A stretch of DNA of 64,000 bases from Rugalucina vietnamica (lineage: Eukaryota > Mollusca > Bivalvia > Lucinida > Lucinidae): assembly GCA_964017185.1 (NCBI GenBank), contig OZ024879.1, positions 46,115,383 to 46,179,382 of the forward strand. Direction: 5' to 3'. Below the pieces are notes generated by a model. It saw only the letters and a list, made by a program, of their open reading frames with translations. It was not told the DNA's origin and made no database searches. Positions within the stretch are counted from its first letter, which is position 1; the number at the start of each line of letters is the position of its first letter. A program made the position numbers and the translations under genes. This document shows positions 3,936 to 57,400 of this stretch, in pieces.

Positions 3936-4109
3936 TGACACTTTCGATAGGCTGGGTGGCCGCCATGAAGAGTATCACAGCAGGGGATACGAACTTTGAG
4001 ATTATGAAGCTCGACAGGATACACTGGCTCCCATTATATTTTGATAATCTACTACATGAGGTTCTAGGTTTCGGCAAAGTTATGTCGGTTACTTTACAAC
4101 AGCCCATGC

Positions 4110-4345
4110 AGAATGTGTCACTTTGGATGGCCCAAGGAAAACAGCCTGAAAAAGCAGAAGGTGTCACTTTGGATGGCGCGAGGGAAAACAGCCTGAAAAA
4201 GCAGAATGTGTCACTTTGGATGGCGCGAGGGAAAACAGCCTGAAAAAGCAGAATGTGTCACTTTGGATGGCGCGAGGGAAAACATCCTGAAAAAGCAGAA
4301 TGTGTCACTTTGGATGGCGCGAGGGAAAACAGCCTGAAAAAGCTG
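4110..4345. repeat. 47-bp minisatellite, about five units
   Basis: The phrase GTCACTTTGGATGG recurs at 4117, 4163, 4210, 4257 and 4304, giving spacings of 46, 47, 47 and 47. Each unit runs on through GCGAGGGAAAACAGCCTGAA. Units 2-5 are nearly identical and the first is more diverged. The unit length is not a multiple of three, so open frames crossing the array are not genes. Confidence 0.95.

Positions 4346-6616: not shown

Positions 6617-6697
<81 letters not shown>
6617..6697. repeat. (TA)n microsatellite
   Basis: About 80 bp of pure TA dinucleotides. It lies between two SINE-2 copies. Confidence 0.99.
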
Positions 6698-22975: not shown

Positions 22976-23032
22976 CATTTTGTTGTTTCTATACGTACAT
23001 AATGATTTATTGTAATTATTTTCTTATTCCAG

Positions 23033-24316
23033 ATAAGTGAAGGCATGTCCTTTTCAACAACCCTGACAAATTGTCTACAATTCTGCAAAGATGCATTGGT
23101 GTATTATGTATACTATATTCTATGGCTCTGCCTTAGAACAGTAAATAATACATTTCAAAGGTTCAACAGAAATAGCGATAAGGCTCTGATTGGTCGCATA
23201 ATATGGAGACGTAAACTTGCTGTTTTTATAAATAATGATCCTAGTGACTTCCTGTGTTTGTCTTATTATTTAGTTGAATCGGACTACGTGCTAAAACCTA
23301 ATGTTTCTCTGTACTGTGTTAGCAGAGATGAAGCAACTTTTGTTGAAACACCAGAAAATCTTAATCTATACAGCTCTGATGAAAATCCTTTCCTTTATAT
23401 GGCACAGTTTGATAAAGGCACTCGTGTGATCAGAATGTCAATATCAACGTTTTGTAGCATTGCCAAGACAATTGGAGACCCACGAATGCCAGTCGTGTGG
23501 ATTACAAGCACGGGTAGATGTGGCTCCACTATCTTAAGCCAAGTATTTGAGGCAATACCAGGGACCCTAACTCTTGCTGAACCAGAAGCCCCTCAGAGTA
23601 TCGCGTTAATGTGGAAATTTAAACAGGTCGGTCACAGCAAGCTCGAAATGATCCTTCGTGCAGTTATACGCATGCTCTGTAAACCACATCCGGGTATAAC
23701 AATGTTCTGCATCAAGGGGACGCCAGCTGCGTTGCCCATAATGGCTGATGTTTCTAGGTTGTTTCCTGACATCAAGCATATTTTCTCTTATCGCGACTGT
23801 TTAGGGACTGTAACATCATGGTTGGGACTTATGACGGCAACACCCTATACTGTGGCGCTACGTGCTTCTATCGATCACGAATGGTTTGCATCTGTGATTC
23901 CGTTAGGTAGAAATCATTTCATTAAATTGCTCATTAATGTACCCAGTAAATTTCATCACGTGTCACTGAAGACGAATACAGTTGGTCTATTTACCCACTT
24001 TTGGGCTAACAATGTGTTAATTGCCGGGAACGCTATATCACATCACAAGTCAATTGTGCCAGTTAAATATGAGTGTCTGCTGAATGATCCAATGGGTACG
24101 TGTTCCAGATTATTTGAAAACATAGGGATAGACAATAGATATCTTGACATTGTAGTGGAAGTATTTAAAAAGGATTCTCAAAGAGGGACTATATTGAGTC
24201 GAAGTCGAGTAGGAGACGACTCCCGGCGGATGATCAGCCAGGAAGACAGATTAGAAATGGATGCAATACTATTACGCTATGGTTTGCCGAAACTGCATGA
24301 AGACTTCTGTTTATAA
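23033..24316 (+). CDS. Sulfotransferase-like protein, single large exon
   Basis: A 423-codon frame from ATG 23045 to TAA 24314-24316. Residues about 18-32 are hydrophobic (VYYVYYILWLCL), fitting a signal anchor of a Golgi type II enzyme. Residues 154-162, TSTGRCGST, match the P-loop-like 5'-phosphosulfate site of sulfotransferases. Residues 248-259, SYRDCLGTVTSW, match the 3'-phosphate site. It should therefore move a sulfuryl group from PAPS; the acceptor cannot be told. A TTATTCCAG acceptor ends at 23032 and no in-frame stop separates it from the ATG. The ATG may thus follow a 5'UTR exon, or more coding exons may lie upstream. The downstream neighbour is a partial copy of this gene's 3' end. 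The reading frame is clean. Confidence 0.88.
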   Translation: MSEGMSFSTTLTNCLQFCKDALVYYVYYILWLCLRTVNNTFQRFNRNSDKALIGRIIWRRKLAVFINNDPSDFLCLSYYLVESDYVLKPNVSLYCVSRDEATFVETPENLNLYSSDENPFLYMAQFDKGTRVIRMSISTFCSIAKTIGDPRMPVVWITSTGRCGSTILSQVFEAIPGTLTLAEPEAPQSIALMWKFKQVGHSKLEMILRAVIRMLCKPHPGITMFCIKGTPAALPIMADVSRLFPDIKHIFSYRDCLGTVTSWLGLMTATPYTVALRASIDHEWFASVIPLGRNHFIKLLINVPSKFHHVSLKTNTVGLFTHFWANNVLIAGNAISHHKSIVPVKYECLLNDPMGTCSRLFENIGIDNRYLDIVVEVFKKDSQRGTILSRSRVGDDSRRMISQEDRLEMDAILLRYGLPKLHEDFCL

Positions 24317-30657: not shown

Positions 30658-30805
30658 TTTGCCAGGCGTCTGGTAATAGCAGATACACCGAAAATTTGCT
30701 ATTGACAGACGTCTGGTAATAGCACATTCACCGAAAATTTGCTATTGACAGACGTCTGGTAATAGCACATTTACCGAGTATTTGCTATTGACAGACGTCT
30801 GTCAA
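30658..30805. repeat. About 53-bp tandem repeat containing a palindrome
   Basis: Three units of GCTATTGACAGACGTCTGG then TAATAGCACATT.ACCGA. The last unit carries the full palindrome GACAGACGTCTGTC. Confidence 0.9.
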
Positions 30806-30832
30806 TAGACTCTTCCTTTTTTAAACCTGTTT

Positions 30833-31088: not shown

Positions 31089-31344
31089 CTGTGCGAAAAC
31101 TTGCCCATGCAATACGCAGACATTTTTTGACATGTAAAAATTGAAAATTTCACCAGGAAAATTTGATTTTTTTTAATACTTTCCTCAAAACATAGATCGT
31201 CTCTGGGGCTGTTCTATCGAGTACCCACAATCTATGTTTTCGACAAAACATTAGAAAAATAGGTTAATCCCTGCATACTCCATTTTTACTATATACAAGC
31301 GAGAAACAATGTGTTATTTATATTACGGACATGTTTTCCTGATG
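31089..31344 (-). mobile_element. Foldback MITE FB1 copy
   Basis: GCGAAAACTTGCCCATGC at the left and ACGGACATGTTTTCCTGATG at the right. The palindromic centre is lost; an unrelated phrase sits between the arms. Confidence 0.8.
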
Positions 31345-31831: not shown

Positions 31832-32179
31832 CATCAGGAAAACATGTCTATGAATTGTATACCCCATTGAACCCCAATTTTATACAGTAAAATTGGGGAC
31901 TACAGTGACATACCTATTATTCTTACATTTGATCCAAAACATAGATTGTGGGTACTCGTAAATTGGGGATTACAGGGTTATACGTATTTTTCTTCAATAT
32001 TTGATCCCTAACATACATTGTGGGTACTCCTTAAAATCGCCTCGGCGAGGCGGTTGTACGTGTACCGACAATCAATGTTTTAGCAAATATATTATAAATA
32101 TTTTTTCTACGGATTTTTTCTTCAATTTTTACACCTGAAAAAAATTTTCTGTATATTGCATGGGCTTGTTTTGGTAATG
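31832..32179 (+). mobile_element. Foldback MITE FB1 with internal duplication
   Basis: Both ends are present. The left inner segment, with ACATAGATTGTGGGTACTCG, occurs twice before the centre CGCCTCGGCGAGGCGG, making this copy about 70 bp longer than its relatives. Confidence 0.85.
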
Positions 32180-35461: not shown

Positions 35462-35620
35462 CATCATGAAAACATGTCCGTGTAATATATACCCACTTGA
35501 ACCCCACAATCTATGTTTTGAGCAAAAATTGAGAAATATCAAAACATTTCAGCTAAAAAATTACAATTTTTAAAGCTCGAAAAAAATCTTTGTATATTGC
35601 ATGGGCACGTTTTCGTAATG
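35462..35620 (+). mobile_element. Foldback MITE FB1, internally deleted
   Basis: The left end CATGAAAACATGTCCGTG joins directly to CCCACAATCTATGTTTTGAG, so the left arm and centre are gone. The right end CATGGGCACGTTTTCGTAATG is intact. Confidence 0.9.
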
Positions 35621-36556: not shown

Positions 36557-39500
36557 ATGGCAGGAATATATATTCACGTCTATATTGTGATAGCTGGGAC
36601 TTTAACAGTGGTTCTTGCAGTGGGTTCAGCACTATGTAAGTTAATAATACGTAATAATTTATAATAAGGATTCAGTTTATATTTATTGAATATTACTTAA
36701 ATTCAACACGTATCTAACATGCGGTCCTCAAGAGCAGAAGAGGAAACAAAGTTATGGATGTGCGCTTAAATATAGGGAATGTTTTCTTGTTAACCAAAGT
36801 CCTAAGAGGGGGGAATTCACTGGTTTAAAACGATGTGCACGTATACGTATTTGTTTATGTATTCAGTTTCAGTGTGTGAGGACAAAGTTTTGTGCAAACT
36901 GTACGGTCAGTCAATATTTTATTTATTTATTTATCTATTTATTTATTTATTTATTCAGCTTCAGTGTGTGAATTCAAAGTGTTATGCAAACTGTACGGTC
37001 AGTCAATATTTTATTTATTTATCTATTTATTTATTTATTCAGCTTCAGTGTGTTAATTCAAAGTATTATGCAAACTGTACGGTCAGTCAATATTTTATTT
37101 ATTTATTTATTTAGCTTCGGTATGTGAAGACAAAGTTTTGTGCAAACTGTACGGTCAGTCAATATTTCATTTATTTATTTAATTATTTATTCAGCTTTAG
37201 TGTGTGAAGACAAAATTTTGTGCAAACTGTACGGTCAGTCAATATTTAGTTTATTATTTATTTATTTATCTTCAGTGTGTGAAGACAAAGTTTTGTGCAA
37301 ACTGTACGGTCAGTCGATATGCACGGACCAAACATACTATGAGTGGCGACAACACAACTGTCCGAAATACTGCGGCACTTGTGTAACAGGTACAATTTTT
37401 AAATTTGTTTGTCAGTTCGATATGCAACAGTCTTGACACTATGGTAACATTCTCTATCTCTTTCACTTTTATCAGAAACGATAATCTGTTAGAAGCATTA
37501 ACATATGTTTAAATGCTTAACAGCCAAACTTATTCAGCATTTTAATTGATTAAGTAATACAAGATAATTATGTTTTTATTGATAATGAAGCTGTACACAT
37601 CATAGTTTGAATCATTCTTTCTGAAGGAACTGTAGGGAGTGGTGCCCCGACAGTCCGCGACTCCCCAGATGTGAGAAAATTACATGCAAAATACAACTGT
37701 ACACAAATGTAAGTCAGGGAAATTTGATTCGATTGAGGGGAAAAATCAAGTAAAAAGGCCGGGAATTTTACTTTGCTCAAATTGTGGACAACCTGTGCGA
37801 CAATACTTTTATGGGATCAGAGTTATATATCACAAGATGAAAGGTACGGAAACGATAATCCGTTAGAAGCATTTAATCATATTTGCATCCTCCGCTTGTT
37901 GTTCTGACTCGAGTTTATTGTCTCTGGTCCGAAGAAATATTGGACGTTAGCCGTCCGGATCGTCGACGGCTTCCACTCGGTTTTTGGAGTGGGAATCTTT
38001 TTCTGATTGCGCCTTTTCCTGATCTTTGCCTACTTGTACCTTTCCATGTTGGATAGGGTGTTTTCGTACCATCCAACATGTGAATGATTTATCGTTCCAT
38101 TATATTTTCAGACCGACCACTAGGCGTTGGGAAAATGATGGAGGCCGGACGTAAGTTAAATAATTGTTGTCATATATCAGTGTACGTTTATGCTTTTGTT
38201 ATCGCATACAGTGAATATTGTGGGTATTTGGACCAAACTTCACAAGATCGATCAAAGTAGCACCGGCCCATCAGCAACTGAGCATCTCACTATGAAGAAA
38301 AGAGAATCCGTGAAGCTGAAAGAAATTACAGAGATCGCACAGCTAGAGTCAACAGGATCATCAGTTTAAGATTTACAACACACGGTCTTGCTCTACTTGC
38401 AACTGACTGGTTAGAATTAAAATTGGCTTAGCCAGCCAAAAAAGAACTCGTCAACACATCTGCACAATCTTGTTATGATTAAGAATACCGAGAGACGATG
38501 AACATATTATTTATACTTCTTTTCTTTGAAATGATTTTTTTTTTATTTTTTTTTTTTTTTTATTTATTTATTTTTTTTTTTGTTATGTGTTTAAGCCCCA
38601 CCAGCACATTTATTTATCATGACGGCAAAGTCTATGCATTTCTTAAATGTTTGATAAAATCTCACATACCCCGCCCGATCTTGTATTATAGCTACTTGTC
38701 GAGATGCAATAGACGATTGTGCCCAGTATGGTACCAAGCTGTGCGATGATGTGAAATTCTACAACTGGGTAAACGAGAACTGCAGGGCCCATTGCAATAG
38801 ATGTAGTAAGTATACTTATCCGCAAAAGAAACGCGAAAAATTTATGAAACCCATTTTCTTGAAAAGGACCCTTTTGATGGAGTTTTGAGTCATATGGCTA
38901 ATGAATTATTACAGTAAGTAACAAGCGACTAAAATAGTTTTGTAGCATGTTTCATTATAACGTTACAATGGCGTTTGTGTACGAGCTCGTGTATTACAAA
39001 ATGGCATGTTAAACATTCTTGATAAATGCGATTTGAAACCGGGTGGCATGTAGTAAAGGCCGGATGTCTATACCAACTAAATAGTTAAAAAAAAGAGTTG
39101 AAAAAATACCGCTTGTCAATGTTCCCAGTGGTCGCGTTTATCTGTTGACGTCAGTCTAATGTTTTAAAATCGTCATTATGGTTCACTACAGACACATTAT
39201 GACATTTCATATCGCGCTTCTCTAGATGTTAGTTCAGTGTGTCAACAGCTATTTTATGGCAATGAAAGATTTTGCGTACGTCTATTACTAGATAGAAAAC
39301 GGCAATTTACGCCAAAATAAAAAAGTCGCCACGCACAAGAAATAAGCGTCGAATGAGGCATTTGATTTTGTCTCACCGAGTTTAGATACATTTTGCAAGA
39401 TAATTAAACGTGTCATAACCCTTTAGCTTTGGAAATGGGGGATAACGAATGTTTTTCGCGGTAACGTGACAAGCGTTGGTCTTAACGACAAGATTTTCAA

Positions 39501-41917
39501 ATTGTGTGGCAACAACTAACGGGACTATCAAAATTCATATCACTAAAGTAAATTTTGGTGTTATAGAAAAATATTTTTCCGCGCTTCTTTTGCGAATAAG
39601 TATATATTAAACTCTCATTGTCTTTGCATGCTTCCATGTTATGATCATTGCTGTAACGACGGGGTTTAATTCTTTGTCCCCAGTTAATGCAACGAAAAGT
39701 GGTTTATCTTCATGATACGACTATTTATTGTGACTGCCTCTCTGTTGTGCTCGTTGCCTTTGGTTTGGTTGAAACTTAGCCGGATGGCTACCTTGTTGGG
39801 AACAAGATAATCATTTTGCTTTCTATTGAGTGTGTTGTCGGGAAAATGTTTTGCTATGTTTTATGTATTTTCTTTACCACCTGGTGTCTATGTTTGGACT
39901 TTAGAGTTTAATTGCTTCGATTCCTGTCCCGTCTATTCTTACTTTACACACGCGAGCTGATCGGGTGGCACTTGTATTTGTGCAATGAGTCCGAATATTG
40001 AAAGTTTCCATATATATGTTATATATGAGCCTCTGTGTGTGAAGCCAACAATTTAGTTTCCTCACCAGGTCTGACACAAACCAGCCGGTACAGTGACAGA
40101 AGCAGGCTAGATAGTTTTAATATATGATACAAAAGTAAGAGGGATGGTATTATCTGTGTAGGGAAAACAAAGGCGCCGATCAGCTGACTGCAGAGCTGAT
40201 CTGCGACTTTGATTTCGCATATGCAGAGTGTTGATTTTCTGGTGCAGCGATTAAATTATTATAGATTTCGAATTTGAAATCTTTCATTCAACATGTTCAA
40301 TGTACATATTCAACCGTGCAAAACTTTTGACATTAAATTGCCAAATGACTTGTTTCACACTGGTAAACCAACGCGATTGAGAACATCAGATGCTGATGAA
40401 ATGACAAAACGAGACTAGGGAAAACCGCATTCGTTCGAATTAGCGCCCATGCTCCAATATTTGCACGCCCTGGTCGTTTCTGAAAATCATTTGCATAAGC
40501 GCAAACTGAATGACTAGCATATTGGTATATCACACACCTTTAACAAATTTATACCACATCTGCATGAAAACTAAATCTTCAAAATGGTTGGAACACTTAA
40601 ATGATGCCTACATTGATAATTTGACTGAAAGTGTTTTGAGAAGTTAAGGACACTGTGCGCTAAATAGAACGAATACGGTGTGTGCCTTCCGAAAGCAACT
40701 TCCCACGGACCATACAGATGCTCGGCAACTTGTTCGCAGACAGGAATTTTATATCATACAGCTGCACATAATCCCCACGAGGGGGTGATGCAGTATAGAT
40801 ATAGATAGATTTTGATTCAATTTGCGTTGTATGTTTGTATTCGTGCGGCTAACCTTTATTTGTTCTTGTGTTTGTTTATTTCAATAGACAATGCATGTGA
40901 AGACAAGGTGTCCAACTGCAAAGACTACGGTGACGACCTGTGTACAGACCTACAGTACTACAACTGGGTACAGATGCACTGTAAAAAGTACTGCGCTAGA
41001 TGTGGTAAGATTACCCACACACACAGTAAATTACTACTATCCGATTCTATGGCGGTAGTACAGTTGTTGTTTGCATAGACGACTACTAATAATTCAAAGA
41101 TGCATGGTATTAAGGCTTTATCATTTTTTGCACGAACAGATTTATAACGGTAAATAAATGCAATCTTAGAGGCGAATTCTTACACTTGGGATAGCGTTGC
41201 ACATTGAAACAAACAATAATATCTAAAAGTTTGCAGTGAATACGTCATACCTGTAAATCCTAAAACGCGGGTGTCGATATTGTTTGTTCATAACGGTTTT
41301 CATAGATCTGTAAACGACTTATACGTAGAGTGACAATCTATGTCGATCGAAGTAGACTTTCGTCACAGATTTACCGTTGTAAATATGAATTACACGCCTG
41401 TCCCTATTGGTCAAATACATTCATTTCATTCAAATATACCTGTAACGAAGTCTAATACGATCGTCCGCGATCTATACAGCTGTAAGATGTGGTTAAAAAC
41501 AAACAATAAATGACTATCCGTTCTGGAGCGGTTGTGTTTTTCAAGAGCTGTAAATGTCTCAGATGAGGCATTTGGGCAGTGCGATATCATAAAGTGTTGA
41601 GTAATGCCTAGATAGAAACGCCCAAGTTGTATATAGCTTGCCGAAATGAACATGTATGTGTTGATTTGATGTCACAGACAGTGAGGTCAGTTAAATGTAA
41701 TGATATGTTCAATTTCATGAAAAATATCTTGATTATCTTATTCTTTTAGCATATCGAGACGGAAAAACAGTATTTTTTTCTAGGTGAGCAAGGTAACTCA
41801 CTGCACAGGTGGCTTCGTCTGGACTTGGACTGAAAACTGTTGAATGGGACGATAAGCGTTTACTTGCATCTTATGCTAATGAAACTAAGATTGTTTTCTC
41901 CATTTGCAGGTACCTAA
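36557..41917 (+). CDS. Secreted protein with three ShKT domains (six exons)
   Basis: Exon 1 (36557-36635) encodes a signal peptide, MAGIYIHVYIVIAGTLTVVL then AVGSAL. Exon 2 (37276-37389) encodes ShKT 1, CEDKVLCKLYGQSICTDQ then YYEWRQHNCPKYCGTC. Exon 3 (38112-38150) is a 13-codon linker, RPLGVGKMMEAG. Exon 4 (38692-38805) is ShKT 2, CRDAIDDCAQYGTKLC to HCNRC. Exon 5 (40888-41004) is ShKT 3, CEDKVSNCKDYGDDLC to YCARC. Exon 6 starts 41910 and ends at TAA 41915-41917. Every junction is phase 1, and the 471 coding nt give 156 residues. Each domain has six cysteines in the ShKT spacing. Secreted ShKT proteins are numerous in molluscs, and the function here is unknown. Repeated acceptors precede exon 2, and a TIR element lies just after the exon 4 donor. 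Confidence 0.82.
36873..37320 (+). repeat. Six-fold repeat of a splice acceptor plus the start of ShKT exon 2
   Basis: TGTGTGAAGACAAAG-type starts occur at 36873, 36965, 37049, 37121, 37201 and 37276, spaced 72-92 bp. Each unit has a (TTTA)n tract, an AG acceptor (TTCAG or TTTAG; the fourth reads TTCGG) and about 42 bp of exon coding CEDKVLCKLYGQS. Only the last unit continues into a full exon with a donor. Length differences lie mainly in the TTTA tract. The repeat grew by duplication of the intron-exon boundary. Confidence 0.93.
37975..38045 (+). mobile_element. Very short retroelement 3'-end fragment
   Basis: About 70 bp, CGGTTTTTGGAGTGGGAATC to CCTACTTGTACCTTT, in an intron of the ShKT gene. 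Confidence 0.85.
38813..39602. mobile_element. TA-flanked TIR element (mariner-like), 790 bp
   Basis: Imperfect inverted ends of about 30 bp: TACTTATCCGCAAAAGAAAC at 38813 and, inverse, TACTTATTCGCAAAAGAAGC ending at 39602. Each is flanked by TA. It begins 7 bp after the donor of ShKT exon 4. No transposase frame is visible. Confidence 0.8.
39700..39955. repeat. Dispersed repeat, inverse of 20285-20510
   Basis: Shared with 20285-20510 on the other strand; contains GCTACCTTGTTGGGAACAAG and TTTTGCTATGTTTTATGTAT. It lies in the intron before ShKT exon 5. Confidence 0.6.
40024..40251 (-). mobile_element. Foldback MITE FB2 copy
   Basis: Inverse of the consensus, with CAGGTCTGACACAAACCAGC and AAAGGCGCCGATCAGCTGAC. 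It lies in the intron before ShKT exon 5. Confidence 0.85.
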
Positions 41918-43395: not shown

Positions 43396-43650
43396 TCTGC
43401 TGGCATCACTTTTATGGGACATAGGCAAACAGAATAGCCCAAGATGTGTCACATCTGGGGCTACTCTGTTTGTAGGCAAACAGAATAGCCCAAGATGTGT
43501 CACATCTGGGGCTATTCTGTTTGCTAAGAGAAATTTCATCGAAAAATGAGAGAAAATTGAAAACTCACTCCTGACGCCCCTAAGAACAGAAGTGGACTCA
43601 CTCAAATGATAATGATGGGAAAATCCATTCGTCAAATATGGGATAAATAG
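43396..43650 (+). mobile_element. Palindrome-centred MITE FB3, tandemly doubled centre
   Basis: GGCAAACAGAATAGCCCAAG then ATGTGTCACATCTGGGGCTA occurs twice in succession (about 43431-43523). The GC-rich loop of other copies is missing. The right part ends GTCAAATATGGGATAAATA. Confidence 0.88.
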
Positions 43651-54489: not shown

Positions 54490-57400
54490 GAACAGTTTTG
54501 ATAAGGGTTTTAGCAAATGTGGCCAACCGTTTTAGCGTTATTTCTTTTGAGCAAGTCATCAGCTCGTTAAATTTGGCAGTGTTAGGGCGTCTGTAATAAT
54601 ATTTTGAAATATATTTCTCTCTGTTGTCTTTAAAAAATGGGCATACCATAATGTAATGGTATACATCACCTACGTCATCGAGAGGGCATAACGTACATTT
54701 ACGTTCTTCGAGATCTATTCCTTTGCCATCTACCGCGTTCGCATGGGAAACGGTGATTTTCAGTTCTCAATTTGGCTAAGTTGGTAAAATGTTGCACGGG
54801 AAGTTTCAAAAGATAACTTTCTAATGTAATGCTATTTTTGAAAATTCGGTAATTAATTCCTTTCGACGATTTTTGTAAGCTCGTGTTCCACGTTTGTTGG
54901 TACTGATCCATTAAGATTTGTTTAATTATGCGAGGTGTATTTTTATTTGGATGGTGACGTTCCTCGTCGTGCTTCTTATGGTGTATACATTTCGCAACTT
55001 ATTAGGTTTGCTAGAGTCTGCAATCATGTTACAGACTTCAACGCTCGAAATAAATGTTTAACGGCAAAACTTCTCCAACAGGGCTATCGGTATCATAAAC
55101 TTCGAAAAACATTTTCTAAATTTTATCGTAGACACTATGAATTGATTTCCAAATATAATGTTGGGTTAAAGACGCTTTTAAGTGAGGGCCTTTCGGAACC
55201 TGAATTTTATGGTGACTTGGTTTACAAATTTAAGAAACTTAAAGGAATTAATGATTTTTCTTTTCAGTTCAGAAAAATCATAACACGTTACAAACGTATA
55301 GGTTATAACTTGAATGTTATGCGACAGTCTGCATGCTTAGTTTTTAACCCAATCATGGTTGATAACTATGCTGCCTTCTTTAATTGCACGCCGGTGGGTC
55401 GGGCGTCAGACTCTATGATGGCCCCGACATAAAGCTATTCATTTTAGTTGGTTGGGGCCGGAGCTTCTTGTCTGTTGCTTGGCCCACCGGGGTCCAACTG
55501 GTGTTTTTCTTTTGCTCCGGAGTTAGTAGGTTATTCGGCGCCCAGGGATCTCCATCGTCGGGCAGCTTACTCAGTCTGTGAGTCCTGGTTTTTGATTCAT
55601 CAGGATGTTTATCATGATTTATTTGTTTGTTCTTGATGATTCATTGACTAGTTAGAGATTCACCACGAGGACCGAATAACTAACTAAATGTTATGAACCA
55701 CTGCAGAAGCTGAGGGTGAGGTTATGGCCATGTAAAACCGGTTTAAGCCCGCCAGTAACTTTGTGTTACTGATCGTTCCAAGTCGATACTTCTGTGGTGG
55801 TTCTTTTTGTTTTATGTCTTGGTGTGTAAAAATTTTTTGTGCTGTTGGCGCCTTATGTATGTTTTCATATTTTTAGTTAAGTTAAGGTAACTGAGTGGCC
55901 ACCTATTGGGAAAATAGCTGCCCATTCGGCTTACGATTGTTTCATGGTATAAGTACCTGATTGTTAGTTTGTTTTTTTCCCACCTCGGTTTTTGGAGTGG
56001 GAATCTTTTTCTGATTGCGCCTTTTCCTGATCTTTGCCTACTTGTACCTTTTCATTTAACCAGATATCCAATCGTCCAGTTTCTTCGAAAATGTGTTTAA
56101 TTTTTTGTATCCATTTGGAGTTTATTTCAGTGCTTGTTCTAAGTTTGTGGTACATTTTATAGGCTATTTTATTGTCAGCATTTTGTGAAATAAGGCGGGT
56201 CCAGTAGTTGATCATTCGATACTTTATTGTCAATGCCATTGGGAATCTTCCCAGTTCACCGTACAACATGTATAGTGGTGTACTTTTACGAACCCTTAGA
56301 ATACCGCGTAGAAACTGTGTGTGGACCGTTTCTAGCAGTCCACAATTTTCAAAACCAAAAACTTCGCACCCGTATGTTAAATAGGTAAAATTGTTTGATC
56401 GAACAGCTTTAATTGGAGATCTACTGGTTAGTATAGGTTTTTGATTCTTATACGAAGCAAATGCATCGCCTTTTTTGCCTGCTCTAATAAATGTTAACGT
56501 GCGTTTAGGAAGCTCCTAGATCTCGAAAAGATCAACCCCAAATATTTGTAATTGTCTACAATTTCAAGAGGCGAGTCATCAAAGTTGAATGCAAAATTAC
56601 TGTTTCTTCGAGCCCCAAAGATTACTACCTTTGTTTTACTTTTATTTACCTCAAGTTTCCAGTCCGAACAGTATTTTGCAAATATGTTTAGATTGTTTTG
56701 AAGATCTTCTGGACTTTTACTCATTATCACCGTGTCATCTGCGTATAGCAGGACATAAATTTGCATATAGAAATACATATTTTCAGTCATGCATTCTACA
56801 GGTATACCTTCTGTGCTCTCGGTCAAAAAGTAATCTTCTAGGTCGTCTAGAAATAGGGAAAATAGGACTGGGGAAATGTTATCTCCCTGTCGTACACCGC
56901 GGTTACTAAAGAAAAAAGGCGAGTCGTTGCCCTCAACTGAGACACATGATTTAATATTCAGATACATATTTTTAAGGATCCGTAAGAAATTTCCATTAAT
57001 GTCATTTTTAAGAAGTTTGCTCCAAAGCCCTGCCCGCTATACCGAGTCGAAGGCTTTGGAGAAGTCTACAAAGCAACAAAAGAGCTATTTCTTTTCGTAT
57101 TTTAGCAATTCTATTAATGCATGCAATGCAAAAATATGATCTGTGGTTGCGTGGAATTTCCTAAAGCCAGCCTGATTTGGTTTTAAAAGTTCATTATATT
57201 CGAGGAACTGGGTTAACCTTTCATTTAAAACTGCAGTGAAAAGCTTCCCCATACAGCTAAGCAAAGTGATGGGCCGGTAGTTATTTGGGTCCATAGCATC
57301 CCCTTTATTTTTGTATATAGGTTTAATTCTGCCTTCTAACCATTGGTCAGGTATAAAGCCAGTATCCAAGATCAAATTAAATAAACATGCAACATTTGAT

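Follow-up and report, generated by a model that had tools for sequence, protein, structure and literature searches.

How does the spliceosome choose an acceptor when the boundary between an intron and an exon is repeated several times within one gene? The locus studied here raises this question, since an initial annotation had described up to six competing acceptors in front of the second exon of a predicted gene. Minisatellites built from an intron-exon boundary are rare but already described. They allow the choice of the spliceosome to be observed where a single intron offers several near-identical acceptors. Such arrays have also been proposed as a source of new introns (PMC3087553). The array lies in a window of 64,000 nucleotides from the bivalve Rugalucina vietnamica, and all positions given below are those of the window unless another contig is named.

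The predicted host gene

The array is located inside a predicted gene on the + strand. Exon 1 (36557..36635, +) was read as coding from its ATG and contributes 26 full codons before the phase 1 donor TAT|GTAAGT. It has no Pfam match, and its N-terminus, counted from this putative start codon, is hydrophobic and resembles a signal peptide, suggesting a candidate secretion signal. Exon 2 (37276..37389, +, 114 nt) encodes the first ShK domain (Pfam PF01549, 25.3 bits), exon 3 (38112..38150, +, 39 nt) a linker, exon 4 (38692..38805, +, 114 nt) the second ShK domain (28.1 bits) and exon 5 (40888..41004, +, 117 nt) the third (23.9 bits), all four being flanked by phase 1 on both sides. The start of the last exon (41910..41917, +) follows the acceptor TTTGCAG| and supplies five coding bases and then TAA.

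The predicted exons join through phase 1 introns with GT-AG ends and none of them is broken, so that the gene looks intact. Exons 2, 4 and 5 all exceed the Pfam cut-off of 20.9 bits and display the six-cysteine pattern, which they share with other ShK (ShKT) proteins of family PF01549; the array affects exon 2 only. Based on this gene model, the predicted product is small and secreted and has three ShK domains, which does not imply toxin activity. An extra exon near 37627-37673 was considered and dropped, its phase being incompatible with exon 3. A search against PDB sequences gave three matches (best E 0.23), a tRNA scan gave none, and a pattern scan of viral contigs gave 0 matches.

Extent and composition of the array

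The array consists of six tandem units of 72, 92, 84, 72, 80 and 75 bp and spans approximately positions 36841-37315. In each unit, the T-rich, mostly TTTA-containing 3' end of intron 1 is followed by the first 40 nt of predicted exon 2, up to GTCAGTC. The repeated segment reaches from the last 30 bases or so of intron 1 to approximately base 40 of exon 2. The six tandem units of 72-92 bp announced in the initial annotation were thus recovered, and it was also right that only the last of them is a complete exon, since unit 6 alone continues into the full 114 nt of 37276-37389. The array does not begin at 36873, as had been stated, since unit 1 has an intron end of its own; the start at 36841 is a convention, and the 72 bp of unit 1 are hence conventional too. 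Tandem Repeats Finder detected the array independently, with rows from 36848 to 37320.

The 20-mer TGCAAACTGTACGGTCAGTC is present without mismatch in all six units. Repeated 20-mers with at least 8 G+C were found in 0 of 500 dinucleotide shuffles of the region, as compared to the six occurrences observed, which rules out a chance repeat.

All units lie on the + strand. Unit 1 (36841..36912, 72 bp) is composed of a TTTG/TTTA stretch, CAGTTTCAG and the start of exon 2 at 36873-36912. The exon-derived part of unit 2 (36913..37004, 92 bp) lies at 36965-37004 (CEFKVLCKLYGQS), and that of unit 3 (37005..37088, 84 bp) at 37049-37088, with TAA as its third codon. Unit 4 (37089..37160, 72 bp) has lost the AG at the homologous boundary, where it reads CGG, and its nearest acceptor, TTTAG, ends at 37114. 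Unit 5 (37161..37240, 80 bp) displays two AGs, ending at 37194 and 37200, both open and in frame with exon 2 (27 and 25 additional residues, respectively). In unit 6 (37241..37315, 75 bp) the end of intron 1 adjoins the complete exon, the first 40 nt of which belong to the unit.

The sequence differs among all six units. The exon-derived parts are identical at 34-39 of 40 positions in pairwise comparisons between units, and the TTTA part differs in length from unit to unit. Units 2 and 3 have several changes in common against the remaining units, which suggests that one was probably copied from the other and is consistent with turnover within the array, as seen in one assembly. The description of every unit as a TTTA tract, an AG and the codons for CEDKVLCKLYGQS therefore holds in part only. 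Unit 1 has no clean TTTA tract but the mixed stretch given above, and the AG is kept at the boundary in five of the six units, whereas unit 4 reads GG and has its AG 6 nt further up. The codons for CEDKVLCKLYGQS are exact in units 1, 4 and 6 (3/6), with D>F in units 2 and 3, of which unit 3 also carries the stop codon, and V>I in unit 5.

Genome-wide searches

We searched the genome (1.09 Gb in 47 contigs) for further copies of the array. The exact 20-mer TGCAAACTGTACGGTCAGTC occurs six times, always in the array; allowing 2 mismatches added two further sites, and the reversed control pattern gave one match. The 580-bp region used as a query, with 40 of the 76 candidates scored, yielded 66 matches, which are the array and 65 others. 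These 65 matches are confined to query positions 60-123 or 169-199, which correspond to the TTTA tracts. The sole match that begins before a TTTA tract (L013) owes this to a short, chance-like extension of a few bases. No second array was found with this query among the candidates scored. Since the matches outside the array amount to TTTA tracts, for the 40 of 76 candidates scored, and the two 20-mers with 2 mismatches, a transposon or dispersed repeat is unsupported.

The surroundings of other ShK exons served as a control. From 150 scored candidates out of 179, we obtained 19 other ShK loci, not counting the three ShK exons of the window. None of the 19 repeats the 36 bases around the start of the domain within about 1.5 kb on each side (at most 9 mismatches, ungapped), in a comparison in which a Pfam match may begin away from the exon boundary and gapped copies would escape. 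A similar test with at most 7 mismatches recovered all six units of the array. Repetition of the boundary as a general trait of the ShK exons in this genome is thus unsupported (0/19 loci).

When the 36 bases that open the domain were compared, one of the 19 loci had a further copy. At this locus (L029; G000:C15:42487573-42490689), a partial, frame-broken copy of the ShK exon lies 355 bp upstream of that exon, lacks the acceptor and adjoins a repeat with ACCCACAATCTATGTTT. Within the window, the latter motif recurs near 31220, and a version that differs by one base lies near 35500.

Resemblance to the boundary minisatellites of lancelets

The repeat unit spans an intron-exon boundary, in six units of a predicted gene model, and splice signals are retained throughout: the boundary AG in five of the six units, the shifted AG in unit 4 and GTCAGT in 6/6. 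This combination characterizes the 'mirage' minisatellites of lancelets, which are described for the globin genes BflGb6 and BflGb9 and for Adh3, PGBD5 and TnC (PMC3087553, PMC3902484). PGBD5 is the addition made by PMC3902484, where Adh and TnC are cited; the original Adh mirage is that of Canestro et al. 2002, known here through both papers. We consider it likely that the array is an intron-exon-boundary minisatellite of this type, with exon 1 spliced mainly to unit 6. Its membership in the lancelet phenomenon would be one of structure only.

The closest parallel is BflGb6 of Branchiostoma floridae, in which the units likewise consist of the intron 3' end and the 5' part of exon 2; they number six in one haplotype, as here, and three in the other, and RT-PCR suggested regular splicing (PMC3087553). 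Tandem copies across an intron-exon boundary are common to the lancelet mirages and the array, and many lancelet units keep AG/GT signals, as they do here (PMC3087553, PMC3902484). The BflGb6 units are reported to be 81-100% identical, and so are not all alike, which also applies to the array. The unit size differs: units measure 150-160 bp in BflGb6 and 10-72 bp in Adh3, as compared to 72-92 bp including a TTTA microsatellite here. In lancelets, the arrays are reported to vary in length between haplotypes, and the authors suggest that splicing remains undisturbed (PMC3087553, PMC3902484).

In a literature search for boundary minisatellites, the reports recognized were these two lancelet papers, the remaining entries being judged by their listing alone. 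A mirage-type array in a host other than a lancelet would extend the phenomenon to another group. The size of the genome (1.09 Gb), about twice that of lancelet genomes, suggests such a host.

Predicted use of the six acceptors

The proposal that the minisatellite was built from an intron-exon boundary is supported, and its units retain plausible 3' splice sites. The six competing acceptors resolve into five at the homologous position and the shifted one of unit 4. All units have yUnAy-like branch motifs upstream and a T-rich tract. We scored the acceptors and donors with general splice-site frequencies, and U1 pairing with the general U1 sequence. On this scale no acceptor of the array scores higher than that of unit 6 (6.78); units 1-5 range from 3.2 to 5.5, and an extra AG located 26 nt upstream in unit 6 scores -0.93. 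The acceptors of exons 3-6 score 5.6, 3.0, 4.5 and 12.1, and units 2 and 3 (5.4-5.5) are comparable to these authentic sites.

Unit 6 is expected to be the main acceptor because it has the top score and lies nearest to the donor of exon 2, which gives the shortest exon (114 nt). It is further favored because, among the units that retain the boundary AG, it is the only one without a second AG 6 nt upstream, which is present in units 1, 2, 3 and 5. The spliceosome is reported to prefer the first AG downstream of the branch point (PMC7317903). With branch-like motifs in front of every unit, this counts against the silence of units 1-5, but the preference acts within one unit and leaves the choice between units undecided.

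The frame readings gave three kinds of outcome. Splicing to acceptors 1, 2 and 3 leads to a stop within the exon after 80, 30 and 2 residues, respectively, and splicing to the shifted AG of unit 4 to a stop after 22 residues, counted from that AG. Acceptor 5 gives an open, in-frame exon of 189 nt that lengthens the protein by 25 residues, two cysteines among them, and acceptor 6 the normal 114-nt exon. The expectation that an upstream acceptor would likely cause misfolding or a stop is thus borne out by acceptors 1-4, which reach a stop, but does not fit acceptor 5, which adds its residues in frame and free of stops. The main value of the array is that it offers a natural test of acceptor choice, with six distinguishable units and predictable outcomes (stop, in-frame insertion or normal exon).

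If the array is a boundary minisatellite, its history may be summarized as follows. The boundary would have been tandemly duplicated once, and the array would then have grown by slippage in the TTTA tracts and unequal exchange among units. Exon 1 would be joined mainly to unit 6, and units 1-5 would lie silent within intron 1. If acceptors 1-4 were used now and then, the in-exon stop and probably decay of the mRNA would follow, whereas acceptor 5 would give an altered but open protein. We expect the number of units to be unstable. Judged from the sequence, the array probably leaves splicing intact, and a change in copy number could alter it.

The silence of units 1-5 is not guaranteed by the sequence, since several of the upstream acceptors score like authentic ones. 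This bears on the alternative that survives best, namely that units 1-4 serve as poison acceptors, the stop leading to degradation, so that the length of the array sets the amount of protein. All four of these acceptors do reach an in-exon stop, and the scores of units 2 and 3 are near those of the authentic acceptors. However, unit 6 scores best and gives the shortest exon, the lancelet authors suggest that arrays of this kind leave splicing undisturbed (PMC3087553, PMC3902484), and the genome search with the 580-bp query, at 40 of 76 candidates scored, disclosed no second array. We regard such a dosage role as improbable.

A donor-like motif in the repeated segment

The 9-mer ACG|GTCAGT, located at 36903..36911 (+) in unit 1, recurs in all six units, where it sits 33 nt into the exon part. 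If it were used as a donor, each unit would become a 33-nt exon reaching from the AG to ACG|GTCAGT, adding 11 residues per unit in frame, and the sequences in between would be nascent introns. The would-be mini-exons of units 1-6 end at 36905, 36997, 37081, 37153, 37233 and 37308. Several observations agree with this reading apart from the conservation of the motif in 6/6 units. The donor score of 7.03, obtained with the general frequencies named above, is inside the range of the five donors of the gene (3.86-8.08). Units 1, 2, 5 and 6 each have an open 33-nt segment that keeps the frame, as does unit 4 with one of 39 nt. Furthermore, the 40-nt exon part has 8 variable columns, all of them within its first 20 nt and 0 in the donor-bearing half, with a P of 0.0016 that assumes independent columns and comes from a test picked after inspection of the data. 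The assumption of independence fails because units 2 and 3 carry clustered changes.

Mini-exons are nevertheless unlikely because the would-be introns measure merely 33, 42, 47, 51 and 59 nt. Each of the gene's five donors pairs more strongly with U1 (-4.9 to -8.0) than the motif does (-4.7), and 10% of the GTs between 36 and 43 kb equal it by this measure. Unit 3 is interrupted by a stop codon, the boundary AG is gone from unit 4, and in unit 6 the motif lies within the ShK coding exon, so that its use would break the domain. An array of mini-exons is thus very doubtful. We give equally little credit to a variant of this reading, in which the in-frame 33-nt micro-exons are partially spliced and the number of units sets, between individuals, the count of 11-residue, two-cysteine repeats before the ShK domain.

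A related system is intron gain by tandem genomic duplication (PMC3443670), which likewise starts from a short duplication bearing AG/GT and creates potential new splice sites. As described there, it differs from the array, in which the duplicated piece already has an acceptor and the motif is GTCAGT and not AGGT; the likeness here is one of motifs alone.

Reliability and origin of the repeated segment

The number of units depends on the assembly, and the animal itself might have a single boundary or a different number of copies. Microsatellite tracts make tandem arrays hard to assemble, and according to the legend of Additional file 4 in PMC3087553, one mirage appears to be aberrantly assembled in its draft version. 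However, the six units are all different from each other, which argues against an assembler having duplicated one stretch of reads, and the contig is chromosome-sized (56 Mb). An assembly artefact is therefore, in our judgment, a slim prospect.

Least credible of all, and hardly to be believed, is that units 1-5 are remains of once-complete ShK exons, shortened at the 3' side after tandem exon duplication, for although the gene does have three ShK exons, the five upstream units all exit the exon sequence at one point (GTCAGTC, then AATATTT), as would be expected if a single short segment had been duplicated.

Other features of the window

Other minisatellites were observed at 4108-4343 (47 bp x 5), 30659-30808 (43 bp x 3.5), 31890-32029 (70 bp x 2) and 43422-43523 (51 bp x 2). 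No gene was recognized around the first three of these when the open frames were inspected by eye, so that none is known as a boundary array. An Rfam match to SECIS_1 at 55407-55474 (+; 37.4 bits, cut-off 35) overlaps the end of the open frame 54926-55432, which we take to resemble part of a retroelement protein, and the match is possibly a chance hairpin. A piece of reverse transcriptase (Pfam RVT_1, 1.9e-22) was found at 56494-57036 (-), and a 428-codon open frame at 23030-24313 (+) is sulfotransferase-like (Pfam Sulfotransfer_3, 2.8e-7). Finally, a perfect (TA) repeat of 39.5 units is present at 6618-6696.
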